Source of the DNA: an uncultured Coriobacteriaceae bacterium
Lineage (GTDB): Bacteria > Actinomycetota > Coriobacteriia > Coriobacteriales > Atopobiaceae
Direction: 5' to 3'
DNA: 49,674 bases
NCBI GenBank assembly: GCA_902795065.1
Contig: CADBJR010000008.1
Span: 1 to 49,674, forward strand
Shown piece by piece: positions 25,268 to 49,329 of this stretch. Position numbers and translations under genes: made by a program. Under the pieces are notes generated by a model, which did no database searches, had not been told where the DNA came from, and worked only from the letters and a program-made list of their open reading frames with translations. Position 1 is the first letter of the stretch; each line of letters opens with the position of its first letter.

Positions 25268-25277
25268 GGAGATTGAA

Positions 25278-25562: not shown

Positions 25563-25564
25563 AG

Positions 25565-25819: not shown

Positions 25820-25831
25820 GACGGTCGCAGG

Positions 25832-26220: not shown

Positions 26221-26228
26221 CTACCAGA

Positions 26229-26283: not shown

Positions 26284-26294
26284 AGGGGCGAGAC

Positions 26295-27305: not shown

Positions 27306-27318
27306 GGGCGAAGCGACG

Positions 27319-28590
27319 ATGGGAAAGGTCAACTTCACACCGAACGAGCGCGTCAACCAGATGGCCGGGTTCTCCTGGCCTGCCGGCGACGTCATCCCCC
27401 ATTACTGGCGCCAGACCATCGTCGACCCGTCCAAGGCACGCAACGGGAAGACGGGAAAGCCCGAGTGGCTCGCCATGCTGATCCTCTCCCACATCGTCTA
27501 CAAGTACATGCCCTACGAGGAGGCCCGCTACGTCGGAGACGAGCACATCATCGACTACAGGATGAAGTTCGACCGCAGGCACGAGTTCTACCAGACGAGC
27601 TACAGGGAGCTCGCGGCCCTTTTCAACGAGACGAAGGACCGCGTCAAGGCCGCCCTGGCGGTGCTCGAGGAGCTGGGCGTCGTCAAGAGGATCCTCACCA
27701 CCGAGTCCTACCACGGCCAGACCCTCAACAACTGCCTGAACATCGACATAGACATCGACAGGCTCAAGCAGCTCACATTCCCCGTCCCTGCAGAGGGGAG
27801 CGCAGCGGGGGTGGGGTCGGAAAGTGACCCCACCTATGGGGAAAAACGCACACAGGTGGGGCCAGTTTCTGGTCCCCCCTATGGGGAAATTCCCGCACCC
27901 CTCCCCCCGGATTTGCCCCCACGTACACTAAGAAAGACCTATGAGAATAAGAACCCTAACCCAGAGGAGGCGGGTGATCCGCTGCCGCTGGGTGCGGATG
28001 GGTTCGGGTCAGGGTCCATCGAAGACGAAAAACCTCCGACCATCATCCCCGTCATGGAAGGCCTCGAGGACTCCGAGGAGTTCAAGGCCGCGTGGGATGC
28101 GGTCCCAGCATCGAAGCGCACGGCCCGCTCGAAGAGGGCTGCGCTCGGGGCGTGGGCGGACGCAGTCCAGGAGAGGGGCATCGACGGCTCCCTCATCTCC
28201 GAGGGCTACACGAGCTATTCCGACATCCGCAGGGAGGAGGGGTGCGAGGAGCGCTACATCGCCGCGCTCTCCACCTGGATCTCGCCATCCCAGCCCATGG
28301 AGGGGCTCACGCTGGAATCCCTCGTCGAGGCCCGCAGGAGGGCAGACGAGGTGCACCGCGCCGAGGAGGAGGCCCGCGCATCGGCCACAGCCGAGGATGC
28401 GGCAGAAGAGCGCGAGGAGCGCTTCGTCAGGAAGCTCATCGCAACCGACGAGGAGGCGAGGCGCCTCCATGCCCTCGCATTCCCCGACACGCCCTCGAGA
28501 AGGATCACCGACCGCCTTGAGCATCTCAGGGCATGGTCCGCTTACCTCGCAGAGAAGAGGGACCATGCGTCCTCCGAGGGGGCGGCCTGA
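27319..28590 (+). CDS. Replication-initiator-like winged-helix protein
   Basis: A 423-residue protein. The N-terminal 150 residues hold a winged helix (SYRELAALFNETKDRVKAAL near 94-113, then EELGVVKRI), as in plasmid replication or phage replisome organiser proteins. Residues 155-225 are a proline- and glycine-rich linker. The C-terminal 150 residues are helical and strongly charged. It is followed by the coupling protein with a TGATG overlap, so maintenance and transfer genes share a transcript. Another reading is a regulator of transfer. The exact family was not identified. Confidence 0.6.
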   Translation: MGKVNFTPNERVNQMAGFSWPAGDVIPHYWRQTIVDPSKARNGKTGKPEWLAMLILSHIVYKYMPYEEARYVGDEHIIDYRMKFDRRHEFYQTSYRELAALFNETKDRVKAALAVLEELGVVKRILTTESYHGQTLNNCLNIDIDIDRLKQLTFPVPAEGSAAGVGSESDPTYGEKRTQVGPVSGPPYGEIPAPLPPDLPPRTLRKTYENKNPNPEEAGDPLPLGADGFGSGSIEDEKPPTIIPVMEGLEDSEEFKAAWDAVPASKRTARSKRAALGAWADAVQERGIDGSLISEGYTSYSDIRREEGCEERYIAALSTWISPSQPMEGLTLESLVEARRRADEVHRAEEEARASATAEDAAEEREERFVRKLIATDEEARRLHALAFPDTPSRRITDRLEHLRAWSAYLAEKRDHASSEGAA

Positions 28591-30950: not shown

Positions 30951-31018
30951 GACGAGGATAGCAGATTTCACCGAGCGGGGACCCTCCCCGCACGGGCAGG
31001 AGAACGAAGGGAGAAACG

Positions 31019-31306
31019 ATGAGGGGAGCCATCGCCAAGGGAATCGGGACCGTCCTCGCAGCGGAGGGCTACGACGCGCAGGGCACGCTTACCTCGATCC
31101 TCAACACCATCTCTCAGGGCGTCTTCTTCATAGGCGCCGCGATCATGGGATGGGGGTTCGTGCAGATCGGCATCGCGGTCTTCAGCGACACCAAGGGCGG
31201 CGGGGCGCAGATCATCTCCGCCTTCCAGGCCATCGTCGCCGGTGCGATCATCATGGTCGCCTCCGCGATCTTCGGCGGGCTTCCGACGCAGTGGGTCTCC
31301 ATGTGA
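31019..31306 (+). CDS. Small two-helix membrane protein, Maff2-like or pilin-like
   Basis: A 95-residue protein with two hydrophobic segments (about 30-52 and 66-88) separated by a short polar loop, FSDTKGGGAQ. Size, topology and place between the coupling protein and PrgI match the Maff2-type proteins of Tn1549-like elements, which take the position of VirB2 pilin genes. The start has AAGGGAG upstream. Whether it is assembled at the surface or is a channel part is unknown. Confidence 0.7.
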   Translation: MRGAIAKGIGTVLAAEGYDAQGTLTSILNTISQGVFFIGAAIMGWGFVQIGIAVFSDTKGGGAQIISAFQAIVAGAIIMVASAIFGGLPTQWVSM

Positions 31307-31316
31307 GGGCTGCGCC

Positions 31317-31739
31317 GTGCTCACCACGAACATACACGCCGACCTCACGAAGTACCGCCCCAAGATCGTCGGGGGCCTCACGGCGCGCACGCTCGCGTGC
31401 ATCGTCCTCGCGCTCGCTACGGCGGTGGCCATCGCCGCGGTCGCATGGCTCGCGTTCGGGGCGGGGGCAGACTCCGTCGGAATCATCGTCTTCGTCGCCG
31501 TCATCCCCTTCTGGTCGATCGGGTTCCTCGAGCCCGATGGGATGAGGTTCGAGCAGTGGCTTCCGCTCTGGATGCGCCACAACTTCGGAGGAGACGAGCT
31601 CGTCTACGAGAACAGGTCGAGGTACGAGGAGGCCGGCTTCGGCGGGCTGACGCATAGGGGAAGGAGGGCGCATGCCGTTTCCAAGGCTTACGGGAGGTAC
31701 CGCGGGAAAAGGGGCTTCGAGCGATGGCCCTCGGTTTGA
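31317..31739 (+). CDS. PrgI-family transfer protein (VirB3-like)
   Basis: A 140-residue inner-membrane protein. The N terminus HADLTKYRPKIVGGLTARTL is the PrgI pattern, and two membrane helices follow (about 26-50 and 52-68). PrgI proteins sit next to VirB4 in Gram-positive conjugation systems and correspond to VirB3. A GTG at 31317 with GAGGG upstream was chosen as start. The last 68 bases overlap the start of the VirB4 gene in another frame, an unusually long overlap. Confidence 0.8.
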   Translation: MLTTNIHADLTKYRPKIVGGLTARTLACIVLALATAVAIAAVAWLAFGAGADSVGIIVFVAVIPFWSIGFLEPDGMRFEQWLPLWMRHNFGGDELVYENRSRYEEAGFGGLTHRGRRAHAVSKAYGRYRGKRGFERWPSV

Positions 31740-34443: not shown

Positions 34444-36092
34444 TGGCGGAGGCGGCGGTCAAGAAGGCGCGGGAACGCGCCGCCCTGTCGGTCTGGGGCA
34501 TCGGCGACGATGCCGCGGAATGTTACCCCTATAACGGGCATAAGGGACGTTATGCCCGTTATAGGGGTAACATCCCTTATGCCGCCGGAAGGAAGAGGCA
34601 TAGGCAATACATTGCGGATATTTCGGCCGTCAACGCCGTCGGATCGGACGACGGTGACGGAGATGGGACGGAGGAGCCTACCGCCGAGCGCATGGTGCGC
34701 TTCGCGGTAGCGGACGCCTCCGCAGCTGCCCCTACCATCCCGACGACGGTTAAGACCGTCGCGCACCCCCTCAGGAGGCTCCAGGCGAGGGCGAACGCCC
34801 GGGAGTCGAGAAGGCTCCACGAGGAGGGGGCGTCCATCGGATCTGCCGCATCCCGGAGCATCGCAGGCGCCGTATCCGAGGCGACGGGCGCGGTCGCATC
34901 GCTCGTCTCCGCAGCCGCCGTCCAAGCGGCATCGCTCCTCATCCCCATGCTCATCCCAGTCCTGGCCGCGATCGCCATCCTCTCGGCGCTCCCGACCTGC
35001 ACCGCGACGCTCACGCTCCTCCCGCAGGGCACGGGAGGCGCCGCGGTCGCGCGGACGGCGCTCTCCGAATACCGCATCGGCGAGGAATCCGGGAGCTACG
35101 GGCACGGCGAGCCGAAGTACTGGAACCGCGTCTTCGGCGGCGGGTTCGTGAACGGATACCAGACGCCCTGGTGCGCCTGCTTCGTCTCCTGGTGCGCAGA
35201 CGAGGCGGGATCCGTCGGCCAGGGGCTCGTCCCGGTGCTCGGGGGATGCGGGGGCTTCCTCGAGTGGTATGCGTCCCATCCCGATGCGGGCACCGTGTAC
35301 CACGGCTTCGCGGGCTACTTCCCCCAGGTCGGGGACTTCATCATCTACAACTCGACGGGAGGCCCCGGCATCGGCCACGACCATATCGGCATCGTCGCCC
35401 GGGTGCACGACGACGGGAGCTTCGACACCGTCGAGGGCAACACCTACGCACCGCATTCGAGCATGTGCGGCTTGTCCGACAACCACTGCGGCATCCACTA
35501 CCACCAGCGCGTCGGGGACGGGTGGCCCTCGGCCGACAGGACGGGCAACGGCCGCGGGGGCGGCGAGCCGTCCTTCATCCGCCCCGCCTACGCAGCATCC
35601 GGCATTGGAGAGATAGCCATCCCCGAGTACAGCAGCGGCACCTGCCCCGCAGGGCATTCCTTCGAGAACGTGTGCGTGGGGACGTACGCCACGCACGAGT
35701 GGGATCTGGCGGAGAACAGCTTCGCCGCCGGCACCGCGCAGGCGCGCGTCCAGGCGCTCTGGCGGAGCGCGGGATCCGTCACCGACTCCGCCGGGTTCAA
35801 CACGCTCGACGGTTGCTATCTCATCGCCTGCACCTCTGTCTTCGGGGACGTGGGCGACAGGATCACCTTCTACTTCGACGACGGCACGGCCATCGAGTGC
35901 GTGAAGGTCGACGCCAAGGCGGAGTCCGTCGCGTCTCATGACGGGCATCCCGCCACCCGATGGGGGCATGCCCACGATGCGAACGTGCTGGAGTTCTGCG
36001 GGACGGACGCCATCGGGGACGATCCCTACCTAGCGCTCGGCCTCGACGGGCGGCGCGTAGTGTCCGCGACGAACCACGGCTCGATCCTCTAG
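34443..36092 (+). CDS. Membrane-anchored CHAP-domain peptidoglycan hydrolase of the transfer system
   Basis: A 549-residue protein with one strong membrane segment near 158-185 and an outer CHAP-type amidase/peptidase domain. PWCACFVSWCADEAG near 243-257 gives the likely catalytic Cys 244, and GHDHIGIV near 311-318 the likely histidine. Such enzymes open the cell wall for the conjugation channel, the role of VirB1. The C-terminal 150 residues resemble a second small sortase-like or beta-rich fold that is not identified. Codons 27-47 are made by a palindromic insertion (34521-34583). Translation is coupled to virB4 by the TGATG overlap. Confidence 0.82.
   Translation: MAEAAVKKARERAALSVWGIGDDAAECYPYNGHKGRYARYRGNIPYAAGRKRHRQYIADISAVNAVGSDDGDGDGTEEPTAERMVRFAVADASAAAPTIPTTVKTVAHPLRRLQARANARESRRLHEEGASIGSAASRSIAGAVSEATGAVASLVSAAAVQAASLLIPMLIPVLAAIAILSALPTCTATLTLLPQGTGGAAVARTALSEYRIGEESGSYGHGEPKYWNRVFGGGFVNGYQTPWCACFVSWCADEAGSVGQGLVPVLGGCGGFLEWYASHPDAGTVYHGFAGYFPQVGDFIIYNSTGGPGIGHDHIGIVARVHDDGSFDTVEGNTYAPHSSMCGLSDNHCGIHYHQRVGDGWPSADRTGNGRGGGEPSFIRPAYAASGIGEIAIPEYSSGTCPAGHSFENVCVGTYATHEWDLAENSFAAGTAQARVQALWRSAGSVTDSAGFNTLDGCYLIACTSVFGDVGDRITFYFDDGTAIECVKVDAKAESVASHDGHPATRWGHAHDANVLEFCGTDAIGDDPYLALGLDGRRVVSATNHGSIL
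34521..34583. repeat. 52-bp palindrome in frame within the CHAP gene
   Basis: Arms 34521-34543 and 34550-34572 are exact 23-base reverse complements around GGGACG. TCCCTTATGCC (34573-34583) is a further inverse copy of 34537-34547. The whole stretch is 63 bp, keeps the frame, and contributes a Tyr/Gly/Arg-rich segment in the cytosolic N-terminal part of the protein. Confidence 0.8.
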
Positions 36093-36101
36093 GAGGCGGA
36101 A

Positions 36102-36911
36102 ATGCGCGATTATCTGGAAAGGCTCCTCTCCACGTGGCCCGGGCGCATCGCTGCGATCTTCGCCATCGCGCTCGTGCTGTCGCTCCTCGCGTTCTGCGCG
36201 CGGGGCGGTGGCGAGGACGAGGAGGCCTCGACCGGACCCAATGAGGTGCCGGCACCCGCCTCGGCGTCAACACCCGATGCGGCGCTCCCCGACGGGATGG
36301 TCGCCCCATCCGAGCCTGCGCCTGACACCGCCTACTCCCCGGACAACCCGGATCTCTCCACCGAGATCATGGGTTGGCTCGTCGAGCACGGCTTCCCCTA
36401 CACCGCATCGGTCACCGCCGTCTCAGACGAGGTGGTCGATGTCGGGAACGGCGCGACCGCCCGCCTCGTCATCTGGTCGGTCGAGGACGGGGAGGCGTAC
36501 ATCGCAGGACAGCAGCAGGACGGCAGGTGGACCGTCTGGACGCCCGACGGCCCCGATGGAAGCGAGGCGCCGTCGATGAGGTCGTACGACGGCATGCTCT
36601 CCATCTACCAGGCGGACGCGCTCGCCGAGCTCATGCCGCGCGAGCTCGCGGAGAGCCTCGTCGACCCCTGGCTCTCATTCGCTGGATCGCGCAGGGTCTC
36701 GGGCACCTCGGCACGCATCCCCACCTCGTCGGTCTCGGCGGATGGTGATGCCGCCTCGTTCCTGCTCGTCGTCGACGACTTCGACGGGAGCATCCCCGAG
36801 ACGCGCTTCTTCCTCGCAGCATGCAGCCGCTCCAAGAAGGGCTGGAAATGCTCCTTCGAGGAAATCGGCGCGGACGAGGCGCGTGAGTCCATCGGGAAGG
36901 AGGGCATCTGA
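36102..36911 (+). CDS. Single-pass membrane-anchored extracellular protein of the transfer operon
   Basis: A 269-residue protein with one membrane helix at about 13-33 (IAAIFAIALVLSLLAFCA), a low-complexity Pro/Ala/Ser linker to about 80, and an outer domain of about 180 residues. Topology and position between the CHAP enzyme and the VirB6-like protein recall TcpC/VirB8-type scaffold proteins, but no sequence motif proves this. The stop overlaps the next start (TGATG). Confidence 0.65.
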   Translation: MRDYLERLLSTWPGRIAAIFAIALVLSLLAFCARGGGEDEEASTGPNEVPAPASASTPDAALPDGMVAPSEPAPDTAYSPDNPDLSTEIMGWLVEHGFPYTASVTAVSDEVVDVGNGATARLVIWSVEDGEAYIAGQQQDGRWTVWTPDGPDGSEAPSMRSYDGMLSIYQADALAELMPRELAESLVDPWLSFAGSRRVSGTSARIPTSSVSADGDAASFLLVVDDFDGSIPETRFFLAACSRSKKGWKCSFEEIGADEARESIGKEGI

Positions 36912-37870
36912 TGGCGAAGGGAAGGAAGCTGGGGCATGCGGCAGTCGCGGCCGGAGCCACGCTCGCCATCGCCCCGACGGCCGCATATGCCGCGACGCTC
37001 CAGGAGCAGGCGGAGGCGTTCCTCGCCAAGTTCCTCATCGACGCTGCGAACGCCCAGTTCGCGGGCATCGCGGAGCACACCTCGCAGATCGCCCATGCAT
37101 CAGGCCTCATGGACCCCCTGAGGGACGCGCTGGGCGACGGGGGCGCCTTCTACACCCAGGTGACGGCCGCATCCTACGTGGTCGTCCGCCCGATCGCCCT
37201 CTCCATCCTCTGCCTCGTCGTGCTCGTGCAGCTCCTCGAGATATCGCGCAAGTACGACGCCAACGCCCAGCTCCCCGTCGTCAAGGAGGTGCTCACCCTT
37301 GCAGTGTACTTCGCCATCTGCGTCTGGCTCATCAACATCAGCACCCGCCTCTGCGAGGCGATCTTCGACATCTCCGCGGGGATCATCAACGCATTCAGCT
37401 CCCAGCTGAACGCGGGGGGCATCGAGGAGATGGTGACCCCCGAGCTCACCTATAGCAGCGTGAGCGTCGGAGAGGTCATCGGCATCGCGCTCGCCGCCCT
37501 CATCACGGGCCTGCTCTCCACGGTCGCGGGGGCAGTCACCCAGCTCGTGGTCATGGCGCGCGTGCTCCAGGTCTACGCTATGGTCTTCCTCTCACCCATC
37601 CCCCTCTCGCTCATGGGCATGGAGCAGACGAGGCAGTTCGCCGTCGGGTTCCTCAGGAGCTTCGCCTCTCTCGCGCTCGCGGGCGTCATGATGTTCTTCA
37701 TCATCGCCGCCTATCCGACGATCCTGAACATCCTCATCGTCGCCTCCAACCATCTCGCGGAGGAGGGCGGGCTCTACATGAACTGGATCACCTCCTCCCT
37801 GATCATGAATGTCCTCTACATCTGGGCCCTCACCAGGTCGGGTGCCTGGGCGCAGTCCCTGTTCGGATAG
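36911..37870 (+). CDS. VirB6/TrbL-like polytopic membrane protein
   Basis: A 319-residue protein starting with a signal-like segment (residues 8-27, AAYAA), then a polar helix region and at least five membrane helices between about 85 and 305. The size, number of helices and place in the operon fit VirB6/TrbL, which lines the inner-membrane channel of type IV secretion systems. VFLSPIPLSLMG near 226 is a pattern seen in such proteins of Gram-positive elements. Coupled to the previous gene by an overlapping stop and start. Confidence 0.75.
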   Translation: MAKGRKLGHAAVAAGATLAIAPTAAYAATLQEQAEAFLAKFLIDAANAQFAGIAEHTSQIAHASGLMDPLRDALGDGGAFYTQVTAASYVVVRPIALSILCLVVLVQLLEISRKYDANAQLPVVKEVLTLAVYFAICVWLINISTRLCEAIFDISAGIINAFSSQLNAGGIEEMVTPELTYSSVSVGEVIGIALAALITGLLSTVAGAVTQLVVMARVLQVYAMVFLSPIPLSLMGMEQTRQFAVGFLRSFASLALAGVMMFFIIAAYPTILNILIVASNHLAEEGGLYMNWITSSLIMNVLYIWALTRSGAWAQSLFG

Positions 37871-37883
37871 GAGGGCTGCGACG

Positions 37884-38495
37884 ATGGATGCGAGATACGT
37901 CGGGAGGTGCCCCCGCTGCGGGGGGCGCGTGCTGGATGCGGGCAGGCTCTACGCCTGCGAGAACGCCATGGCCAGGGAGAAGAAGGGGCAGGCCGCCTGC
38001 AACTGGAGGCTCTGGAAGGTCTTCCGGCGGTGCGCCATCACCGAAGGGGCGCTGGGTCGCCTCCTCGCGGGCGATGAGGTCGTCATCGAGTGCGCCACGG
38101 AATCAGGCGACGCCTACAGGCTGACCGTGTTCCTCGACCCCGACCGCAATTTCGCGCTCTACCCCGTCAGAAGGGTCGTCGGCGAGTGCCCCGCATGCGG
38201 CGGAAGGCTCCTCGAGAGCGACCGCGCGGTCCGTTGCGAGAACAACCGGACCCATCAGGTCGGCGGGAGATGGGTGAACGACGGGACTTGCTCCTTCCGC
38301 GTCCAGAAGGACATCAACGGAGTCCGCCTGTCGACAGCCGAGATCGCAAGGCTCGCGTCGGGCGAGGAGGTCTTCCTCCGCGGGCTCGCGGGGAAGGGCG
38401 GGAGGAAGCTGGACGCTTGGATGAGGCTCGACAGGAGGGACGGTTTCAAGCCTGCCTTCCGCCTCGACGGAAAGGGGGATCACAGTGGAGACTGA
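37884..38495 (+). CDS. Protein with two tandem topoisomerase-type zinc ribbons
   Basis: A 203-residue protein made of two similar halves. Each begins with CPxCGGRxL (residues 9 and about 110), then CEN, then a further Cys before a W/F-R segment, and ends with a LL/LA-x-GxEV stretch. This is the layout of the C-terminal DNA-binding zinc domains of type IA topoisomerases, but no topoisomerase catalytic part is present. It may bind DNA during transfer. ATG at 37884 follows GGAGGG. The frame overlaps the start of the next gene by 11 bases. Confidence 0.7.
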   Translation: MDARYVGRCPRCGGRVLDAGRLYACENAMAREKKGQAACNWRLWKVFRRCAITEGALGRLLAGDEVVIECATESGDAYRLTVFLDPDRNFALYPVRRVVGECPACGGRLLESDRAVRCENNRTHQVGGRWVNDGTCSFRVQKDINGVRLSTAEIARLASGEEVFLRGLAGKGGRKLDAWMRLDRRDGFKPAFRLDGKGDHSGD

Positions 38496-39336
38496 GAGGG
38501 ACGGAGGGATGGAAGCCCGCGGGAACCGGACCAGACGGGTGATAGCGGCCTTCGGGATCGCGGTCGCCATCGCGGCGATCCTAGCCACCCGATCGTGTGT
38601 CCCCGCATCCACCACGGAGGCGACGCCCCATGCTGCCCCGCAGCAGACCGAGGCAGTCGAGACGGACAGACGCGGCGCGGAACGGGAGCATACGCCCCAG
38701 AGGGAGGGTCCCGCCTCCGACGGAACGGACATGCGCACCGGAAGCACGCCAGGCACCCAGCAGGACACGATCTCCAGAACGCGCCGACGCGAAACCGCCG
38801 CCGGTCAGGATGCGACAGCGCCTTCCGATGGAGGCAGCATGGCGGAGCCTCCCGCTCCATCTGCATCGGACAGCGGCTCCGGGAGCCAGAGCGGCAGCTC
38901 GGTCGATGCGCCGGCGCCGATGCCCGAGAAGAGGGCCTGCCAGGCATGCGGCGGGACGGGCTCGGTCAAAACAGGGTCGAGGACCGTCACCGACAGCGCC
39001 GCCTGGGACGAATGGGTCGTCGACAGCCCCGCATGGGACGAGTGGGTCGTCGACAGCCCGGCATGGGACGAGACGGTCTACCTCGGCATCCAGCTCTCAG
39101 ACGGCACCTTCTTCGCCGCCGGGGACGAGGCATCTGCGGACGCCTACGAGGAATCGGTCGTCCTCGCGGGGGGATCAATCTCGAGCAGCAACGTCTACGG
39201 CTCGGTCCACCACGACGAGGTCGGGCACACCGTGCACCACGACGAGACCGGCCATGCGGTCCACCACGACGCCATCACCCATACCGAGGACGCCTACGGG
39301 ACCTGCCCCGCCTGTGGCGGGAGCGGGACCGTGTAG
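38485..39336 (+). CDS. Membrane-anchored repeat protein with split DnaJ-like cysteine motifs
   Basis: A 283-residue protein. One membrane helix (about 19-37) precedes a long low-complexity region rich in Thr, Ser, Pro and Ala. From about 152 comes CQACGGTGSV, and the last residues are CPACGGSGTV. Both are CxxCxGxG motifs as in DnaJ zinc centres, here about 120 residues apart. Between them are three copies of an AWDEWVVDSP-like repeat and then a histidine-rich repeat (VHHDEVGH and variants). The two cysteine pairs could close one metal site and the histidines could bind further metal. The GTG at 38485 has GGGGG eight bases upstream. Function unknown; similar DE/His repeat proteins occur in Gram-positive conjugative elements. 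Confidence 0.65.
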   Translation: METERDGGMEARGNRTRRVIAAFGIAVAIAAILATRSCVPASTTEATPHAAPQQTEAVETDRRGAEREHTPQREGPASDGTDMRTGSTPGTQQDTISRTRRRETAAGQDATAPSDGGSMAEPPAPSASDSGSGSQSGSSVDAPAPMPEKRACQACGGTGSVKTGSRTVTDSAAWDEWVVDSPAWDEWVVDSPAWDETVYLGIQLSDGTFFAAGDEASADAYEESVVLAGGSISSSNVYGSVHHDEVGHTVHHDETGHAVHHDAITHTEDAYGTCPACGGSGTV

Positions 39337-39396
39337 GCAAACCCGAGAGGAGGACGCACTTGGCCACCTGAGCATCCAGCACCCATCCGAGTGAAC

Positions 39397-39452
39397 ACGG
39401 AGCCGTGCTTCCACGCCCCAGCAAGGGCCGCGGCTCCGTTCCGTACGAGAGA
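39397..39452 (+). other. Copy C of the three-copy conserved hairpin element
   Basis: ACGGAGCCG (39397-39405) pairs exactly with CGGCTCCGT (39431-39439). Inside are CTTCCAC (39408-39414) and a hairpin GCCC-CAGCAA-GGGC (39415-39428). The tail TCCGTACGAGAGA (39440-39452) follows directly. It lies in the 243-base gap before the surface protein gene. Confidence 0.55.
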
Positions 39453-39474
39453 GCACGCAGAACTGAGGCACCCC

Positions 39475-39579
39475 ATGAAACGCAAGCAGCATGACTGCAG
39501 CAACCAACCAACGCCTCCCTTCTCCATGCTCCGAATGCGGCACGGCAAGAGCATTCAGCCAGAAGAAAGGAGTCGATGA
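39475..39579 (+). CDS. Possible 34-residue small protein before the adhesin gene
   Basis: An ATG at 39475 opens a short basic frame whose stop (39577-39579) directly touches the ATG of the adhesin gene. There is no motif and no strong ribosome-binding site. It could be a leader frame coupled to the large gene or chance. Confidence 0.25.
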   Translation: MKRKQHDCSNQPTPPFSMLRMRHGKSIQPEERSR

Positions 39580-42500
39580 ATGCAGAAGCACAAGAAGAGA
39601 CAGAGAACGGTCCGCCTCATCAGTTGGGGCATGGGCACGGGAAGGAGGATCGAGACGGCGATCGTCACGCTCGTCCTCGTCCTCAACCAATGCCTCTGGC
39701 CCCTCGGACCCTCGAAGATGGCCCTCGCTGAGGAGGCCGATGGCGGAGATTCCGCCATTATCATCGAGGCGGCGCCCGATGAGGCCCCCGAAGCCGTCGT
39801 CGAGGAGGAGCCTTCGGTCCCCGACGCCCCCGACGTTGCTGCGGAGCCAATCACCGAGCAGGAAGGATCCGAGCTGCCCGATGACGAGCCCGGCCTTCCC
39901 GACGCGAACGCCCCTCCGACTGGGCAGACCGAGGAGCCATCGCTCCCGAAAGCACCATCCACCATCGATGTCACCTACAAGGTCGTCAGAGGAGCGGACG
40001 AGGAAGCCTTCACCGATCCCGCGGCGGTCGAGGCGGGAGCGACCTCCAACCGCGTCCGGCTCGATACCGACCTCGGATTCGAAGACGGGACAGAGGTCGA
40101 GCTCCGCATCTCGATCCTCCTCGACGGGAACGACATCACGGACAGGGCGGAGGTCGCCCCCGACGGGAGCTGGATCGAAATGCCAGCGGAGATCGACCTC
40201 TCCAAGGTCGAGATCGAGGTGACGGCCACCGCAGCCATGCCCGAGGAGGTCTCCCCCGAAGCAGCCGAGCCCATCGAGGCTGAGGAAGCGCCTTCTGCAG
40301 CCGAGGAGGACCAGATGATCTCCGAGCAGCCAGCGGAGGATACCGGGGATGGCATGGACCAGCCCGCACCGAACGAGCCGGATCAGGAAGCGTCCGAGCA
40401 GCCGGACGATCTCCTTCCGGACGATGGCGATGGGGAGGATTCCGGGGAGGCAGATGCCGAGGAGCTCGACGGCGAGGCCATCGCCGCCCAGATGGCGGAG
40501 TTCGAGGCCTTCTTCGAGGAGGCCGGCCTCGGCGAGGACGAGCAGCAGGCCTTCATGATGCAGGTCGGCATCCCGCTCCTCGCGGCAGCAGGGTCCACGG
40601 GAACCATCACGAGCATGAGGTCCACGGGCCTCGGCGACGGCATCACCGCAGGCTACACCTGGACGCTCGACGGCAGGCAGGCGTACTGCATGTCCGGGTA
40701 CTTCGCAGACCCCGTCGTAGGACAGACGCTCACCCGCTACAGCGGGAACCTCGGCATCAAGGAGCTCGACTATGTCCTCTACCACGGCTACGACGGTGTG
40801 ACCGTCACGAGCGTGGGAGGGCTCAACGCGATGAGGTCAATCGCAGCCACCCAGGCGGCGGTCTGGTACGTCGTCGGGGACAAGCGTCCCGACATCCTCA
40901 ACACCCACGGATACAGCCATAACGAGAACTACTACAACCGTCTCTACGGCCTCGACGTCATCGACGGAAGGCAGGACATCTTCCGCGCGGCCAAGGCGCT
41001 CGTCGACGCCGCGACCGCATACGCGAACTCTGGCGGAGGCGGCCCCGAGGCGGGCTTCGCGCAGGTCTACCTCAACGACGGCTCCGTCCACGACAGCGCA
41101 GGCTACCTCATCCAGCACATGGCGGCGGTCGGCGAGAAGACGGGCACCCTCCGGCTCGTCAAGGTATCCGCGAGCCCGTCTCTGACGACCAACCTCGCAT
41201 GCTACGACCTCGCAGGCGCGGAGTACGGCGTCTACACGGACTCCAGCTGCTCCGCGAGCTCGCTCGCAGCCACAATCAGGACCGATACGAACGGAGAGGG
41301 ATCCGCGACGCTTCCCGCAGGCACCTACTACGTCAAGGAGACCAAGGCGAGCTCGGGCTTCCTGCTCGACACCGAGGTCCACACCGTCACGGTGCCTACG
41401 GGCGGGACGGGCACCGTGACGTCGACCGAACAGCCAGGCAACGACCCCATGAACGCGCGCGTCGTGAAGCGCGACAAGGACACCGGCGAGGCGAGCCCCC
41501 AGGGAGGAGGCACCCTCGCGGGGGCGGAGTTCACGCTCCGCTACTACGACAACACCGACGGCGATACCGCCGGTGCACCCACCCGTTCATGGGTGTTCGC
41601 GACAAATGCAAACGGCGTGGTCCTGTTCAGGTCCGCGACGCCGATCTCCGGCGATGAGTTCTTCATCGGGGCGGGCGGGACGCGCATCTTCCCCGTGGGA
41701 ACCTACACCATCCAGGAGACCAAGGCGCCCGAGGGATACATACTGCCCTCGGGAGGGTCAGAAGTCCACACGCAGGTCGTCAGAGTCGCAGGCGACGGCC
41801 AGACCGTCACCGAGATGAACGACATCATCGTCGACGAGCAGGTAAAGCGCGGAGACGTCCGCTGGGTGAAGACCGACGACTCCGGCAGGCCGATGGCCAA
41901 CGTCGAGTTCGAAATCACCTCGCAGACCACCGGCGAGAAGGTCACCGTCAGGACCGATGCGGACGGCGTCTTCGACTCGAGCCGCGCATCCGACAAGCGG
42001 CAGGCTTGGATGCCCCATTCGAGCACGCCCGACTCCTCGCTCGGAGCCTTCCCCTACGACACCTACTCGGTGAGGGAGCTGCGGAGCGATGCGAACCGAT
42101 CAGCGAGCACCCTCCTGAGCTTCACCTTCACCATCGACGACTCAACGGCTGGCAAGACAACCGACCTCGGGACCGTCGAAAACAGGATCGTCACCATCGG
42201 CACCACCCTCACCGAGGACGGAGGCACGCACTACGTTCCCGCCATCGGAACCGTGACCCTCACCGACACCATCTCCTACACCAACCTCGAGGTGGGCGCG
42301 ACCTACTGGTTCGAAGGCGAGCTCTACGACAAGGAGAGCGGCGAGAGCCTCAGCATCACCGCGAAGGGAACCGAATTCATCCCAACCAAGACGAATGGAA
42401 CCGCATCGATGACCTACGAGGTCGATGCGGAGGAGCTTGCTGGGAAGACCGTCGTCTGCTTCGAGACCCTGCACTGCAAGGACGACGACGGCTTCACCGT

Positions 42501-44373
42501 CTCCCACGAGGACATCGACGACGTGGCCCAGACCGTGTACTTCCCCGAGATCGGAACCACCCTCACTGGCGATGAGGGAGAGCACGAGATCGTGCTCTCC
42601 GAGAACATCGTCCTCACCGACACCGTGGAGTACACCAACCTCGAACCCGGAAAGACCTACACCATCACGGGCGAGCTCATGGACAAGGCAACCGGAAAAG
42701 CCAACGGCATCACGGCGTCCACGACCTTCACGCCTGCCGAGAAGGACGGCGAGGTCGAGGTGACCTTCACCTTCAAGGGCGTCGAGGTCGCGGGCAAGAC
42801 CGTGGTGGCCTTCGAGACCGTGGAGCGCGACGGCAAGACCTGGGCGGTCCATGCCGACATCGACGACGAGAACCAGACGGTCAACTTCCCCGAGATCTCG
42901 ACCACCATGGTCGACGCGCAGGGCGAGCACGAGTCCGTCGTGACCGACGAGACCGTGACGCTCACCGACACGGTCGAGTACAAGGCGCTCCGCCCCGGCG
43001 AGGCCTACACGATGCAGGCTGAGCTCATCGACAAGGACACCGAGGACGTCATCGCCACCGCAGAGACCGACTTCGTCCCCGAGGCGGCCGACGGCACCGT
43101 CGACGTGGTCTTCGAGGTTCCGTTTGCGGACGTCGAGGGCAAGGTCACGGTCTGCTTCGAGACGCTCACCAGCGAAGGCCGTCCAGTTGCGATCCATGCC
43201 GATATCGCCGACGAGGGCCAGACGGTGAACTTCCCCTCCGGCGGCACCACCCTCACGGATGCAGACGGCAACCACGAGGTGCTCGCCACCGAGAGCCTGA
43301 CCCTCACCGATACGATCGAGTACAAGGGCCTCATCGTCGGCAAGACCTACTCGGTCCGAGGCGAGCTCATGGACAAGGAGACCGGCGAGGCGACCGGCAT
43401 CGTCTCGGGTGCGATCTTCACTCCCGAGGCGTCCTCCGGCACGGTGACGGTCGAGTTCACCTTCGACGGCATCGAGATGGCAGGCCATACCCTCGTCGCC
43501 TTCGAGACCGTCTCCCGTGACGGCCGCGATGTCATCGTCCATGCCGACATCGAGGATGAGGACCAGACGGTCACGATCCCCAAGATCGGTACCACGCTCA
43601 CCGACGAGGAGGGCACCAAGGAGGTCGTCTCCGAGGGCCCGATCACCCTCAAGGACACCGTCGCCTACGAGAACCTCACTCCCGGCAGGACCTATGTGGT
43701 CTCAGGCGAGCTCTACGACAAGGCCACGAACGAGAGCCTGGGCATCACCGCCACCGCCGAGCTCGTACCCGAGGAGGCCGACGGCACCGTCGACGTCATG
43801 TTCGAGATCGCCGACGCCTCCGCCCTCAAGGGTAGGACCGTGGTCGCGTTCGAGACCGTCGAGGCCGATGGCCGCACCGTGGCGGTCCACGCCGACATCG
43901 ACGACGTCGAGCAGACGGTCGAGTTCCCCGAGATCCGCACGAAGGCCGCAGGCGACAACGGCACGAATCGCGTGCTGGCAGGCAATCCCGCCACCATCGT
44001 GGATACCGTGAGCTACACCAACCTCGTGCCGCACAAGACCTACACGATGAGGGGCGTGCTGCACGTGCAAAACGCCGACGGCACCGACGGCGGCGAGCTC
44101 AAGATCGACGGCAAGGCCGTGACGGCGGAGACCACCTTCACCCCGACCGCCGGGAACGGCACGGTCGAGATGGCCTTCACGTTCGATGCCTCCGCGCTTG
44201 CCGGTAAGAGCGTCGTCGTGTTCGAGCAGTGCTACGACGGCGAGAGGCTCGTGGCGGCCCATGCCGACATCGCAGACGCCAACCAGACGGTCGAGGTCTA
44301 CGCGGCAGCCGGCATGGCGATGGCGGCGATAGGCGCCTACCTCGCCCGAGTCCGCAAGGAGCAGTCGCTCTAG
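39580..44373 (+). CDS. Large surface adhesin: thioester domain, Cna-B/SpaA domains and six VaFE repeats
   Basis: A 1597-residue secreted protein. A signal peptide ends near residue 50 (ALA-EE). Residues 55-330 are acidic linker with a possible small beta domain near 130-220. A thioester domain follows: Cys 370 in YCMSG and Gln 425 in TQAAVW should form the internal thioester that bonds covalently to host or other surfaces. Three SpaA/Cna-B-like domains cover about 525-865. Six VaFE repeats of about 115 residues, each with TLTDT, LxGKTVVxFE and QTVxF-like ends, run from 870 to 1580. The end is a short hydrophobic stretch and RVRKEQSL. No LPxTG sorting motif is present, although the gene otherwise looks sortase-anchored. 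GAAAGGAG lies upstream. Confidence 0.88.
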   Translation: MQKHKKRQRTVRLISWGMGTGRRIETAIVTLVLVLNQCLWPLGPSKMALAEEADGGDSAIIIEAAPDEAPEAVVEEEPSVPDAPDVAAEPITEQEGSELPDDEPGLPDANAPPTGQTEEPSLPKAPSTIDVTYKVVRGADEEAFTDPAAVEAGATSNRVRLDTDLGFEDGTEVELRISILLDGNDITDRAEVAPDGSWIEMPAEIDLSKVEIEVTATAAMPEEVSPEAAEPIEAEEAPSAAEEDQMISEQPAEDTGDGMDQPAPNEPDQEASEQPDDLLPDDGDGEDSGEADAEELDGEAIAAQMAEFEAFFEEAGLGEDEQQAFMMQVGIPLLAAAGSTGTITSMRSTGLGDGITAGYTWTLDGRQAYCMSGYFADPVVGQTLTRYSGNLGIKELDYVLYHGYDGVTVTSVGGLNAMRSIAATQAAVWYVVGDKRPDILNTHGYSHNENYYNRLYGLDVIDGRQDIFRAAKALVDAATAYANSGGGGPEAGFAQVYLNDGSVHDSAGYLIQHMAAVGEKTGTLRLVKVSASPSLTTNLACYDLAGAEYGVYTDSSCSASSLAATIRTDTNGEGSATLPAGTYYVKETKASSGFLLDTEVHTVTVPTGGTGTVTSTEQPGNDPMNARVVKRDKDTGEASPQGGGTLAGAEFTLRYYDNTDGDTAGAPTRSWVFATNANGVVLFRSATPISGDEFFIGAGGTRIFPVGTYTIQETKAPEGYILPSGGSEVHTQVVRVAGDGQTVTEMNDIIVDEQVKRGDVRWVKTDDSGRPMANVEFEITSQTTGEKVTVRTDADGVFDSSRASDKRQAWMPHSSTPDSSLGAFPYDTYSVRELRSDANRSASTLLSFTFTIDDSTAGKTTDLGTVENRIVTIGTTLTEDGGTHYVPAIGTVTLTDTISYTNLEVGATYWFEGELYDKESGESLSITAKGTEFIPTKTNGTASMTYEVDAEELAGKTVVCFETLHCKDDDGFTVSHEDIDDVAQTVYFPEIGTTLTGDEGEHEIVLSENIVLTDTVEYTNLEPGKTYTITGELMDKATGKANGITASTTFTPAEKDGEVEVTFTFKGVEVAGKTVVAFETVERDGKTWAVHADIDDENQTVNFPEISTTMVDAQGEHESVVTDETVTLTDTVEYKALRPGEAYTMQAELIDKDTEDVIATAETDFVPEAADGTVDVVFEVPFADVEGKVTVCFETLTSEGRPVAIHADIADEGQTVNFPSGGTTLTDADGNHEVLATESLTLTDTIEYKGLIVGKTYSVRGELMDKETGEATGIVSGAIFTPEASSGTVTVEFTFDGIEMAGHTLVAFETVSRDGRDVIVHADIEDEDQTVTIPKIGTTLTDEEGTKEVVSEGPITLKDTVAYENLTPGRTYVVSGELYDKATNESLGITATAELVPEEADGTVDVMFEIADASALKGRTVVAFETVEADGRTVAVHADIDDVEQTVEFPEIRTKAAGDNGTNRVLAGNPATIVDTVSYTNLVPHKTYTMRGVLHVQNADGTDGGELKIDGKAVTAETTFTPTAGNGTVEMAFTFDASALAGKSVVVFEQCYDGERLVAAHADIADANQTVEVYAAAGMAMAAIGAYLARVRKEQSL

Positions 44374-44419
44374 CACCGGAAAAAAGCCCATGCCCTCCAA
44401 GCAACGGGAGGGCATGGGC
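44139..44419 (+). repeat. Direct repeat copy 1: 3' end of the adhesin gene and its hairpin
   Basis: This 281-bp segment, the last codons of the adhesin gene plus the hairpin after it, recurs almost unchanged at 46450-46714. The main difference is 14 bases present here and absent in copy 2. The two copies enclose the hydrolase and TetR genes. Confidence 0.9.
44380..44419 (-). terminator. 13-bp hairpin after the adhesin gene, terminator on the minus strand or both
   Basis: GCCCATGCCCTCC (44386-44398) pairs fully with its inverse (44407-44419). On the plus strand an A-run (44380-44385) precedes it and no T-run follows, so read on the minus strand it is a typical hairpin with T-run. It probably also stops or stabilises the plus-strand message. 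Confidence 0.6.
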
Positions 44420-44451
44420 GCATCGCCATCTGCGTCAAAATAATCGTTAGT

Positions 44452-44561
44452 TACCGTACACCGTACTATTTCTACCGTTCACGGTACCTGCGTGAAGCCC
44501 GAGATTATAACAGTACGTTGTACGGTAATATCTCGGACAACGAACAGTACAACGTACTGTT
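44452..44561 (+). promoter_or_regulatory. Three GTAC-N3-GTAC operators before the hydrolase gene
   Basis: Sites at 44452-44470, 44509-44527 and 44543-44561 share GTAC, three bases, GTAC. The last is a perfect palindrome with 8-base arms (AACAGTAC and GTACTGTT). A possible -10 box TAATAT (44526-44531) lies between the second and third. The TetR-type gene downstream of the hydrolase is the likely binder. Confidence 0.6.
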
Positions 44562-44585
44562 AAACATCCAAGAGAGGAGCACAAC

Positions 44586-45728
44586 ATGGCAGTCCGTCCC
44601 CGTCCCGGCGCGCAGAACCCCGGCCGCATGATCTCCGGCGGCATGAACATCGAGGACTTCATCGAGCTCACCAACCGCACCGAGTGCGACTGCACCTGCG
44701 TGGGCAAGAGCTTCACGCCCGTTCCGGAAGACCAGCGCGAGGACTTCGTCGACGTGGCCGAGGAGATCGGCAACCGCAACCTCGCCTATGCCGAGGAGAT
44801 GGAGAAGGCGGGCAACCTCGTGACCGCGTCCGACTTCTACGCCCGCGCAGAGGCGATGTTCCGTGTTGCCGACTACGGCATCCACGACGCGATCACCGAC
44901 GAGAAGAAGCGCATCTACTCCAAGATTCCCTACTGCTTCCAGAAGTCGTGGGCGCTTCGCCCCGAGCACGTAGAGACCGTTGAAATCCCCTTCGAGGGAA
45001 AGACGATGGAGGCCTACTTCGCCATCCCCGACAACTGCCCCACCGACTCCCCCGTCCTCGTGATGATCCCCGGCGCCACGGGCTTCAAGGAGGAGAACTA
45101 CTCCACCTGCTGGTACTTCTACCAGCGCGGCATCCCGTTCATCATCTTCGACGGCCCCGGCCAGGGCACCTCGCTCTACTTCAAGGAGATGTGGCTCACC
45201 GAGACCAACTACACCGACGCCGTGCGCGAGGTCATCAACTTCGTGAAGGCCGACCCGCGCGTGGGCGACAAGATCGCGCTCTATGGCATGAGCTACGGCG
45301 GCTACCTCGCCACCGCGGCGGCTTGCGAGCTCAACGACGACATCTGCGGCCTCATCGTGCGCGGAGGCACCGACAAGACCGACACCCTCACCAAGCACCC
45401 CTGGGTGGGCATCGAGAACTTCTACCTGGGCGGATTCCAGCTCAAGTTCAACAAGCCCCTCGATGTGTGCAGCGAGATGTCCACGCGCATGGAGTGCACG
45501 GACGACCTGCACAAGATCACGTGCCCGCTCCTCATCATCCACAGCCACGCAGACCCGATCATCGGCATCGACGGCCCGCACCGCATCTACGACATGGTCT
45601 CCTCCAAGGTCAAGCACTATGCGGACTATCCTGGCATGGCCCACTGCGTGAATGACAAGATGGACTCCGCCGGCTGCTTCGGCGCCGACTGGATGGTTCC
45701 ACGCATGCTCGAGGCCGCCCGCGCATAG
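44586..45728 (+). CDS. Alpha/beta hydrolase (FrsA / dihydroxypseudooxynicotine hydrolase-like)
   Basis: A 380-residue cytosolic hydrolase with a helical N-terminal region (1-135) and an alpha/beta hydrolase core. The nucleophile serine is in GMSYGGYL near 237, the acid is in HSHADPIIG near 320, and the histidine is in GMAHCVND near 352. The oxyanion region reads MIPGATGF near 160. The overall layout resembles FrsA-type esterases and C-C bond hydrolases of the 2,6-dihydroxypseudooxynicotine type; the substrate is unknown. Three palindromic operators precede it and a TetR-type gene follows, so expression is probably induced by a small ligand. The pair lies between direct copies of the adhesin 3' end, which suggests it moves as a cassette. 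Confidence 0.82.
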   Translation: MAVRPRPGAQNPGRMISGGMNIEDFIELTNRTECDCTCVGKSFTPVPEDQREDFVDVAEEIGNRNLAYAEEMEKAGNLVTASDFYARAEAMFRVADYGIHDAITDEKKRIYSKIPYCFQKSWALRPEHVETVEIPFEGKTMEAYFAIPDNCPTDSPVLVMIPGATGFKEENYSTCWYFYQRGIPFIIFDGPGQGTSLYFKEMWLTETNYTDAVREVINFVKADPRVGDKIALYGMSYGGYLATAAACELNDDICGLIVRGGTDKTDTLTKHPWVGIENFYLGGFQLKFNKPLDVCSEMSTRMECTDDLHKITCPLLIIHSHADPIIGIDGPHRIYDMVSSKVKHYADYPGMAHCVNDKMDSAGCFGADWMVPRMLEAARA

Positions 45729-45811
45729 GCGCAGCTGGTAGAATGAACGTGTGAGAATCGCGGCCCCGCGGCTCAATGCCGTGGGGCCGCCGCACGACGG
45801 GAGGCCAAACG

Positions 45812-46447
45812 GTGGCGAGGGGCGAGGGGCGTTCCAACATATGCGAGGCGGCGGTGCGCCTCTTTAACGAGCAGGGCTACGACAGCGTGAGCCTCCGCCA
45901 GATCGCGGCGGAGGCGGGCACCACCATCGGAAACCTCACCTACCACTTCAGGCGCAAGGAGGACCTGCTCGCCGCCATCCTCACCGACCTCCATCAGGGC
46001 TTCTCCGGGGGTCTGGACCGCAGCCTGCGCGGGCGCGACCTCGTAGCGAGGCTGCTCGAGCTCTTCGTCGAGAACGAGGCCAACCACGCGCGCTACCCCT
46101 TCTACTTCGAGAACCTGTCGCAGATCATGACGTCGTTCCCCTCCATCAAGGCCGAGAACGACGCTTTCGTGCGCGACCTCTACGAGTACTACCGGTGGGC
46201 CTTCGGACAGCTGGTGCGCGACGGGTGGCTCTCGCACAAGGCGGACGGCGGCACGCCGTCCGCGCTGGCCTACGTGCTCATCGCAATGCAGTCCGGGTGG
46301 GTCCAGGCGTCCTCGCCCTACCGCAACGAGCTGCTTCCCACGATCGCACTCCCGAAGGCGGCGGCCACGCTCCTGCGCACGCACGTGGCCGACGCGATGC
46401 TCGCAGAGTACGACGAGGCTTGCGTCGAAGCCGGCATCGCAGGCTAG
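45812..46447 (+). CDS. TetR/AcrR-family transcriptional regulator
   Basis: A 211-residue regulator. The N-terminal helix-turn-helix covers residues 8-55 (CEAAVRLFNEQGYDSVSLRQ, then AAEAGTTIGNLTYHFRRKEDL), typical of TetR. The C-terminal part is an all-helical ligand domain. A GTG at 45812 with GGGAGG seven bases upstream was chosen; an ATG 12 codons earlier lacks a site. It follows the hydrolase gene by 83 bases that contain a GC-rich hairpin (about 45763-45792). It probably represses the hydrolase and itself through the GTAC-type operators. The stop codon is two bases before the start of the second direct repeat. Confidence 0.85.
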   Translation: MARGEGRSNICEAAVRLFNEQGYDSVSLRQIAAEAGTTIGNLTYHFRRKEDLLAAILTDLHQGFSGGLDRSLRGRDLVARLLELFVENEANHARYPFYFENLSQIMTSFPSIKAENDAFVRDLYEYYRWAFGQLVRDGWLSHKADGGTPSALAYVLIAMQSGWVQASSPYRNELLPTIALPKAAATLLRTHVADAMLAEYDEACVEAGIAG

Positions 46448-46449
46448 CC

Positions 46450-46670
46450 CACCCCGACCGCCGGGAACGGCACGGTCGAGATGGCCTTCACGTTCGATGC
46501 CTCCGCGCTTGCCGATAAGAGCGTCGTCGTGTTCGAGCAGTGCTACGACGGCGAGAGGCTCGTGGCGGCCCATGCCGACATCGCAGACGCCAACCAGACG
46601 GTCGAGGTCTACGCCGATGGCGGCGATAGGCGCCTACCTCGCCCGCGTCCGCAAGGAGCAGTCGCTCTAG
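46450..46670 (+). pseudogene. Duplicated 3' fragment of the adhesin gene
   Basis: The fragment repeats the last part of the final VaFE repeat (MAFTFDASALADKSVVVFEQ onward) and the RVRKEQSL tail. A deletion of 14 bases relative to the complete gene shifts the frame just after QTVEVY. No start or upstream gene part exists. It is a dead copy, nearly identical in DNA to the functional end, so the duplication is recent. Confidence 0.85.
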
Positions 46671-46676
46671 CAACGG

Positions 46677-46714
46677 AAAAGCCCATGCCCTCCGACGAAC
46701 GGGAGGGCATGGGC
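46677..46714 (-). terminator. 13-bp hairpin, copy 2
   Basis: GCCCATGCCCTCC (46681-46693) pairs with 46702-46714; AAAA precedes it, giving a T-run on the minus strand. It is in place to end transcripts from the minus-strand gene at 46799. The remaining gap to 46798 holds nothing else I can support. Confidence 0.6.
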
Positions 46715-46798
46715 TCATAGACATAATATGGGATGAAAACAAAGCGGGCCGGGTCGTGCTTGGGCGGTCAGTTTGCCCTGGGCGCCTCGTCAACATCT

Positions 46799-47098
46799 TT
46801 ACTTTGAGAACAGCCTCTTGCAACGCTCGACGCCCTCGGGCGTGAACACCGCATGTGCGGTCCCATAGCCGGGCCTGCCGAACGAGCTGAGATACCCTTG
46901 CTCGATCAGCTCGTCCATGTACGACCTTACCTGCTCGAAATCGTAGTAGCAGCCGTTGACGTAGCCGATGTCGAAGAAGACCCCGAGCTCGTCCCGCTCG
47001 GTCTTTTTCTGGGCCTCGCTGCGATTCTCATACTCTGCGAACAGGTTCTTCAGAAAACGCGTCGCCCGCTCCGACGGCTCCGCAAGCTGCTCGGACAT
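46799..47098 (-). CDS. Small winged-helix-like hypothetical protein
   Basis: A 99-residue protein without membrane segments. The second half (EQVRSYMDELIEQGYLSSFG, then AVFTPEGVERCKRLF) has the helix-helix-wing rhythm of small winged-helix DNA-binding proteins, but no family is recognised. The start at 47098 was chosen for AAGGGG seven bases upstream; a longer frame begins in AT-rich intergenic DNA. It stands alone, facing the duplicated adhesin end. Confidence 0.6.
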   Translation of the reverse strand: MSEQLAEPSERATRFLKNLFAEYENRSEAQKKTERDELGVFFDIGYVNGCYYDFEQVRSYMDELIEQGYLSSFGRPGYGTAHAVFTPEGVERCKRLFSK

Positions 47099-47271
47099 CG
47101 CACGCCCCTTCGTCGAGATACCCATGGACACAGGGCTATTGTATCTCTGGAAATTGCTGATTCTGCTGATCGGACTTTGCCACATTCAGCCGATTTGACA
47201 AAAACCCTGAGACGAAACCGCCATGAGGTCCGTACTATGGATAACGAGGCATATGCGAAAGGAGTTCACCG

Positions 47272-47754
47272 ATGAATATCATGAAGAAGATCTCGGCTCT
47301 CGCCGCCACGGCCGTTCTGGCGCTCGCCGTCACCGCATGTATGGGCAACGGAGGCTCGGGCGCCCCCGAGCAGCCCGCCGACGATTCCGGCGCCGCGATC
47401 GAGCAGCTCGCCAACGTGAGCGGCTACGCCGTCCATCTGAGCGAGGAGAACAAGCAGGCCACCGTCGAGGTCGAGGTGGCCGAGGGCGAGAGCCTCTATC
47501 AGATGTCGCGTCTCGATACGGGCGAGGCAGAGTCCAGCACCTCGCACGACGGCGAGTGGCTCACCAGCGATTACTTCTACGAGGGCTCTGGCGCCGGCAT
47601 GATGGGCGTCGATCCGGGCACCTACACCATCGAGGTCTCCACGGAGGATGCAACCGGAACCATCTGGATCTTCGCGTACACCTCCGATGCCGTCGACTAC
47701 GAGAGCATGGATGCCGACCAGATCGTCGACTTCCTCCTCGGCGAGATTTCGTAG
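47272..47754 (+). CDS. Putative lipoprotein
   Basis: A 160-residue exported protein. The signal peptide runs to a lipobox LAVTAC with Cys 23, so the mature protein is probably lipid-anchored outside the membrane. The mature part is acidic, has a short linker to about residue 40 and a compact beta-rich domain of about 110 residues (ATVEVEVAEGESLYQMSRLD; later GTYTIEVSTEDATGTIWIFA). No known family was recognised. AAAGGAG precedes the ATG and a strong terminator follows, so it is a single-gene unit. Confidence 0.8.
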   Translation: MNIMKKISALAATAVLALAVTACMGNGGSGAPEQPADDSGAAIEQLANVSGYAVHLSEENKQATVEVEVAEGESLYQMSRLDTGEAESSTSHDGEWLTSDYFYEGSGAGMMGVDPGTYTIEVSTEDATGTIWIFAYTSDAVDYESMDADQIVDFLLGEIS

Positions 47755-47872: not shown

Positions 47873-48070
47873 CTACTCCTCGATCTCCTCGGCAACGCGC
47901 TCGACGAGCTCGCCGAAGGTCTTCATCTTCATGACCTCGTGGATGGTGACCTCGGCATCGAGCTCGTTCTCGATGGTGGAGGTGAGGGCGATCATCTTCA
48001 TGGAGCCCTTGCCAAGCTCGTCGAAGGTGGTGTCGGGGGTGATCTCGCCGTCGTACTGGTAGGCGGTGTT
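47873..48070 (-). pseudogene. Acyl carrier protein gene lacking its 5' end
   Basis: Sixty-five codons of an acyl carrier protein C-terminal part are open on the minus strand. FDELGKGSMKMIALTSTIEN contains the serine (in KGSMKM) that would carry phosphopantetheine, followed by the typical helix III region and an acidic end. The reading frame has no start: it runs into the 22-bp repeat at 48068-48089, where an in-frame stop appears. The first 10-15 residues of the protein are missing, so the gene was cut by a rearrangement at the repeat. Confidence 0.75.
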
Positions 48071-48089
48071 GAATCTACCTTACAAACGT
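48068..48089 (+). repeat. 22-bp direct repeat, left copy
   Basis: An identical 22-bp sequence (begins GTTGAATCTACC, ends ACAAACGT) is at 49069-49090. Weaker identity continues for about 16 bases to the right in both. The left copy joins the cut acyl carrier protein gene to a terminase fragment. Confidence 0.85.
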
Positions 48090-48462
48090 GAGCCATGTTC
48101 AACTCGATTCTCTCATCTACGCGGACGAGACCGGCGAGGAGCCCTACTACCATGACCAGGTGGTTCGGGTAGACGACACGCCCGACGGGAAGGTCCAGAC
48201 GAGCGTTTACAGGCGCGGCCTCGGCATACGCGCACGCCCTGCCCGCAAGGGGCGGATGCGCAAGCTTTCCTACGAATGGCTGGCAGGACTGCGGGAGATC
48301 GTGATAGACCCGGTGCGGTGCCCGCTCACCTTCGAGGAGTTCGCCATGAAGGAGTACGAGCGCGACCGCGACGGGAACTGGCTCGACATCATCCCGGACG
48401 GCGACGACCATTCCATAGATGCGGTGCGCTATGCGGTAATGGACGACGTGTTGCGTGGGTGA
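48088..48462 (+). pseudogene. C-terminal fragment of a phage terminase large subunit
   Basis: The 124-codon frame begins with GTG at the end of the 22-bp repeat and has no proper N-terminal ATPase domain. Its second half (FEEFAMKEYERDRDGNWLD, then DDHSIDAVRYAVMDD) matches the end of the nuclease domain in PBSX-type terminases, where DDHxxDAxRYA is highly conserved. It is a remnant of a prophage; phage packaging function is lost. The end overlaps the 3' end of the kinase-like gene on the other strand. Confidence 0.75.
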
Positions 48463-49068: not shown

Positions 49069-49090
49069 GTTGAATCTACCTTACAAACGT
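49069..49090 (+). repeat. 22-bp direct repeat, right copy
   Basis: Identical to 48068-48089. Its last base is part of the stop codon of the portal fragment on the minus strand. Confidence 0.85.
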
Positions 49091-49329
49091 TAACCACGTT
49101 CAGCGCAGACGCGCATAGCCGGGTGGATCGAGCGCCGATGCACCTCATACACACGCCCCATGCCGTCCTTGTCCCTATAGTCGTAGAACTCGCCCCTGGC
49201 GCTCATCCAGTCATCCCAAGATCTAATCCAGGGCTCCATGTCGTCCAGGGGAAGAACAAACCCGAGCTTGCGCAGATAGTCCTTCACATGCTCCGGCACC
49301 CAATACTCGTCCAGACCGTTAGCACCCAT
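49090..49329 (-). pseudogene. N-terminal fragment of a phage portal-like protein
   Basis: A 79-residue frame with a proper start (ATG at 49329, GGAGGT six bases upstream) resembles the beginning of portal proteins that follow terminase genes in PBSX-like phages: LRKLGFVLPLDDMEPWIRSW, then FYDYRD and MRVCAERG. It stops abruptly where the 22-bp repeat begins, well short of the 450 or so residues of a portal protein. Together with the terminase fragment it marks a broken prophage. The family match is from pattern memory only. Confidence 0.55.

Follow-up and report, generated by a model that had tools for sequence, protein, structure and literature searches.

Recent direct copies of an adhesin gene 3' end enclose a hydrolase-TetR gene pair in an uncultured Coriobacteriaceae bacterium

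Integrative elements of the tRNA- or gene-end integrating kinds leave their target gene with a restored 3' end. Single-crossover insertion-duplication of the Campbell type predicts an intact gene followed by the insert, a truncated 3' copy of the gene, and the original downstream DNA. The locus described here resembles both arrangements. As with gene-end integrating elements, a full gene lies on one side and its 3' end is repeated on the other side, and as in Campbell-type events, the full gene, insert and truncated 3' copy are in direct order. However, the enclosed unit lacks an integrase, the second copy is decaying, and the repeat, which includes the gene's own hairpin, greatly exceeds usual att cores in length. 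The unit is not a member of the integrase-driven gene-end elements. For a Campbell-type event, which is a candidate route, neither a donor molecule nor a same-species empty site was found. The closest relatives of the full gene are the VaFE / T-Q ester-bond adhesins located beside CD1110/CD1115-type conjugation genes. The adhesin of this locus has the same domain make-up and the same neighbours, in that VirD4, VirB4 and PrgI genes adjoin it, but differs in that its LPxTG motif has been deleted, whereas the motif is present in the orthologue of a relative (genome G004).

The window is the whole stretch of DNA that was analysed, 49,674 nucleotides in length. Its features relevant to this arrangement are as follows.

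39580-44373, plus strand: VaFE/T-Q ester-domain surface adhesin of 1597 amino acids (Pfam, NCBIfam; C terminus compared with the G004 orthologue).
44139-44419, plus strand: copy 1, 281 bp, comprising the last 235 bp of the adhesin open reading frame and a hairpin; the true 3' end.
44386-44419, no strand assigned: terminator-like hairpin with a 13-bp stem behind the adhesin stop codon; T-run only on the minus strand.
44450-44565, plus strand: hydrolase upstream region with GTAC palindromes; similar palindromes lie upstream of the orthologues in L012, G134 and G139.
44586-45728, plus strand: alpha/beta hydrolase of 380 amino acids (Pfam Hydrolase_4).
45812-46447, plus strand: TetR-family regulator, GTG start preferred (Pfam TetR_N, 2.7e-16); its orthologues adjoin hydrolase orthologues.
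46450-46714, plus strand: copy 2, 265 bp, a shortened, non-coding duplicate of the adhesin 3' end and hairpin with a 14-bp frameshifting gap.
46681-46714, no strand assigned: copy 2 hairpin, which could end the transcript of TetR (plus strand) or of 46799-47185 (minus strand).

The initial annotation had described recent direct copies of the adhesin 3' end, nearly identical segments of 281 and 265 bp, around an alpha/beta hydrolase and a TetR-type regulator, with the second copy starting two bases after the TetR stop. Each of these points is borne out. The copies have 259 matches and six mismatches, corresponding to 97.7% identity over 265 ungapped columns, and the remaining 16 columns are one 14-bp gap and one 2-bp gap, both in copy 2. 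Exact runs extend for 65, 99, 31 and 26 bp, the longest being that of 99 bp. The TetR stop codon TAG (46445-46447) is followed by CC and then by the CACCCC that begins copy 2, and no clear origin was seen for this junction. Only copy 1 belongs to an open reading frame, and the 14-bp gap shifts the frame in copy 2. When copy 1 was used as a query against the whole genome, copy 2 was the only near match (E 1e-117), and the next-best places, at 72%, were repeats inside the same adhesin gene. When aligned with each other, these internal repeats are 61-81% alike versus 97.7% for the copies, and therefore the copies represent a specific duplication rather than ordinary internal repetition. This is a real and recent duplication with an ordinary explanation. 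Literature searches returned no description of a hydrolase-TetR pair between adhesin tail copies.

The adhesin carries a thioester domain, two SpaA domains and six TQ/VaFE domains. Pfam matches include TQ (E 3.5e-160), SpaA and TED, and the NCBIfam VaFE_rpt model matches with E 3.7e-188 and 614.8 bits, above its curated cut-off of 24. The gene is located beside a conjugation module encoding VirD4 (CD1115 type), VirB4 (CD1110 type), PrgI, CHAP and TrbL-like proteins. No relaxase or integrase was recognised among the proteins scanned from this module (24658-44373); a relaxase, a NikA-like protein and a tyrosine integrase are present on another contig (G000:C17:4518-9388). What was not expected is the loss of the sorting motif. 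No C-terminal LPxTG motif was found in the window adhesin, whose tail reads ...TVEVYAAAGMAMAAIGAYLARVRKEQSL, whereas the tail of the G004 orthologue, ...TVEVYSLPHTGDATDLASASWAAAAGMAMAAIGAYLAHVRKEQSL, carries this motif as LPHTG. Relative to G004, the window adhesin lacks 51 bp holding LPHTG as an in-frame gap at 44300-44373, and its attachment to the cell wall may have been lost. The 51-bp loss is common to both copies, and copy 2 lacks 14 bp more. Thus, the loss is most simply older than the duplication.

Between the copies there are only the hydrolase and TetR genes, and no integrase, relaxase, insertion sequence (IS) or recombinase was found in this unit. The nearest solved sequence relative of the hydrolase is the 2,6-dihydroxy-pseudo-oxynicotine hydrolase 2jbw (E 9.9e-15). 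For the TetR gene, the GTG at 45812 is probably better placed as the start codon than the ATG at 45776, as judged from the preceding GGGAGG and the alignment with relatives. The GTAC palindromes upstream of the hydrolase, such as AACAGTACAACGTACTGTT at 44543-44561, are probable TetR operators through which the regulator would repress the hydrolase. The upstream region in L012 carries, for example, the similar palindrome CGTACAGTACAACGTACTGTACG, and a GTACACCGTAC stretch is common to the hydrolase upstream regions. A scan for sigma-70 promoters found nothing.

The same gene pair occurs, as an ordinary pair, in three other and distantly related genomes. It is in tandem in G134 and G139 (hydrolase 60-63% and TetR about 49% identity) and divergent in L012 (hydrolase 82% and TetR 49% identity), and beside none of these three pairs is there a stretch matching the window's adhesin tail. 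The recurrence of the pair with similar upstream palindromes indicates that hydrolase, tetR and operator region belong to one unit that predates this locus. At E <= 1e-60, the hydrolase was found among 140 family genomes only in G134 and G139 besides the window genome. At E <= 1e-100 it is rare, passing in 3 of 396 class genomes when the window genome is counted, and the other two are G134 and one genome of another family. Among the genomes found, only that of the window has the unit linked to an adhesin. A search of plasmid records with the hydrolase returned only Rhodococcus hydrolases at 27% identity, and neither the adhesin tail nor the TetR-copy 2 junction was found in viral contigs.

The comparison covered one genome per species, and G004 (68% complete) is another species of the same genus. 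It matches window positions 29630-41543, the conjugation-module/adhesin block, with 95.6% identity over 11.9 kb, and positions 43395-44430 with 88%, gaps included. Besides the window genome, it is the only one of the 140 family genomes with a close adhesin 3' end. Its adhesin orthologue is split across contigs, and the 3' end is present once; the region behind it is unrelated, contains an aldo/keto-reductase-like open reading frame and has no hydrolase. The homology between G004 and copy 1 runs to 44430, stopping 11 bp behind the hairpin, and behind all three adhesin ends, those of G004, copy 1 and copy 2, the DNA turns unrelated at almost the same point. For positions 46700-47260, immediately after copy 2, no match was found in those genus members that were searched. 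The initial annotation had proposed comparing related strains for versions with one copy and no cassette; this state exists in a relative, but that relative is another species with different flanking DNA. G004 does not qualify as a strict empty site, since what lies downstream of its adhesin bears no relation to the DNA behind copy 2. Identity to the G004 3' end is 93.5% for copy 1 and 90.9% for copy 2. Since the copies are closer to each other (97.7%) than to G004 and have the LPxTG loss in common, the duplication took place after G004 had split off.

We give about even odds to the reading that a single recent rearrangement, involving two adhesin 3' ends, left this arrangement as its scar, with copy 2 now a fossil. 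The hydrolase-TetR unit with its operators would thereby have come to adjoin the adhesin hairpin, and what remains behind the unit would be another adhesin 3' end, cut by an illegitimate join two bases past the TetR stop. The likeliest route is that two adhesins of one element lineage flanked the unit and that a deletion spared only the final 265 bp of the second. The same map would result if a molecule carrying 'hydrolase-TetR-adhesin 3' end' had integrated by a single crossover. The differences between the copies are unevenly placed, with 2 in 221 coding positions versus 4 in 44 from the stop to the hairpin end (Fisher p 0.008, or p 5e-5 if extended to 44430), although the differences are few and the split point was chosen post hoc. 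Moreover, the end of copy 2 has AGCAACGGAAAAGCC and CCGA in common with an adhesin-tail-like fragment on G004 contig C61, which is 85% identical to copy 2 over 73 bp and 81% identical to copy 1 over 70 bp. Together, these observations suggest, as a hint and not as proof, that the end of copy 2 derives from another adhesin locus, which was truncated where it stood or was introduced via a single crossover. No genome was found in which two full adhesins flank the unit.

A less probable but still credible account is local replicative duplication. Here the unit would already have followed the adhesin when a template switch placed a copy of the adhesin 3' end, with its hairpin, after the TetR stop, providing TetR with a hairpin. 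Template switching accounts for the near-identity of the copies about as well as a rearrangement between two adhesin 3' ends does, and it agrees with the coding parts carrying only 2 substitutions in 221 bp, with copy 2 beginning 2 bp past the TetR stop, and with a second adhesin not being seen. The excess of post-stop differences and their resemblance to the C61 fragment speak against it.

It is improbable that an assembly or binning artefact joined two adhesin-end contigs. This is a draft assembly of 53 contigs and the adhesin is repetitive, with its G004 orthologue split across contigs. Nevertheless, the window is one contig that extends from core genes through both copies. Substitutions and two gaps separate the copies, and their longest exact run is below the usual read length, making a plain assembly duplication unlikely on the letters of the sequence.

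We consider it similarly doubtful that the 2.3-kb unit is a live cassette that excises as a circle via the copies and re-enters other adhesin 3' ends, so that strains switch between carrying and lacking it. The direct orientation of the repeats, their exact runs of 99 and 65 bp, and the one-copy state of G004 are compatible with such exchange, but the unit has no recombinase, the hydrolase is found in so few class genomes, and the adhesin linkage is seen only here. G004, as another species with different downstream DNA and a retained LPxTG motif, is not the reciprocal product. Excision had also been expected to be neat and to leave the adhesin intact. Scripted joining of the copies restored the present 1597-amino-acid protein when the crossover was placed in the ~60 bp downstream of the 14-bp gap. 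Over most of the homology excision would not be neat, because crossovers upstream of the gap gave a frameshifted product of 1609 amino acids without the hydrophobic end; from the upstream ~165 bp, the tail reads ...VYADGGDRRLPRPRPQGAVALATEKPMPSDEREGMGS with no hydrophobic segment. The term 'intact' fails in a second way, in that the adhesin is already without the LPxTG motif of its G004 orthologue. The lost motif and the frameshift from most excisions are the most useful corrections to the initial annotation. Its proposal that an insertion had rebuilt the end of the target gene finds no support in an integrase-driven sense: there is no recombinase, and relatives carry the pair without the adhesin tail. 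Overall, the structure looks like an ordinary recombination scar and not a self-moving cassette.

It is highly improbable that a recombinase-free cassette enters and leaves the adhesin 3' end by homologous recombination, exchanging the tail and switching the protein among LPxTG wall-anchored, membrane-tailed and secreted forms. If population-level tail exchange were shown, it would be a simple means of changing adhesin anchoring. An IS composite transposon is rejected, as the flanking repeats are adhesin ends and not insertion sequences with transposase. On a small scale, the locus illustrates how repetitive adhesin genes located at the edge of an element gather recombination scars and neighbouring genes.

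The hairpin in each copy has a 13-bp stem and a predicted energy near -30 kcal/mol, and the T-run behind it, on the minus strand only, has six T residues in copy 1 and four in copy 2. The copy 2 hairpin may serve as a transcription end. Given the strand of its T-run, it would fit best as the end for the leftward gene at 46799-47185, and is a weak candidate for a typical rightward TetR terminator.

Several other observations were made in the surrounding DNA and in G004. The tail-like sequence on contig C61 of G004 (L055, 1306-1376, minus strand) is decayed, is accompanied by a hairpin, and is flanked by a SUKH/SMI1 gene and a mobilisation-type gene on a contig without an adhesin. An isolated VaFE-repeat-like fragment in G004 (L053, contig C83, 5430-5639) is near a contig end and on the strand opposite to another open reading frame; it could represent another adhesin fragment or an artefact of the contig end. 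In the window, a small lipoprotein-like open reading frame (47272-47754) has a paralogue with 69% identity at G000:C49:646-1180. Two copies of a ~36-bp sequence, GTTGAATCTACCTTACAAACGTGAGCCATGTTCAAC, are spaced about 1 kb apart (48069-48105 and 49070-49106), and a third, with different flanks, is at G000:C3:110459; the four congeners lack the 21-base core of this sequence. Its copy at 48069-48105 adjoins an acyl-carrier-like fragment (47873-48071; 96% to G002). The block between the two copies matches G002 at 93%, and positions 49092-49313 are inverted relative to it there. An isolated terminase C-terminal-like open reading frame at 48088-48462 is likely a phage remnant (Pfam Terminase_3C, just below the cut-off).
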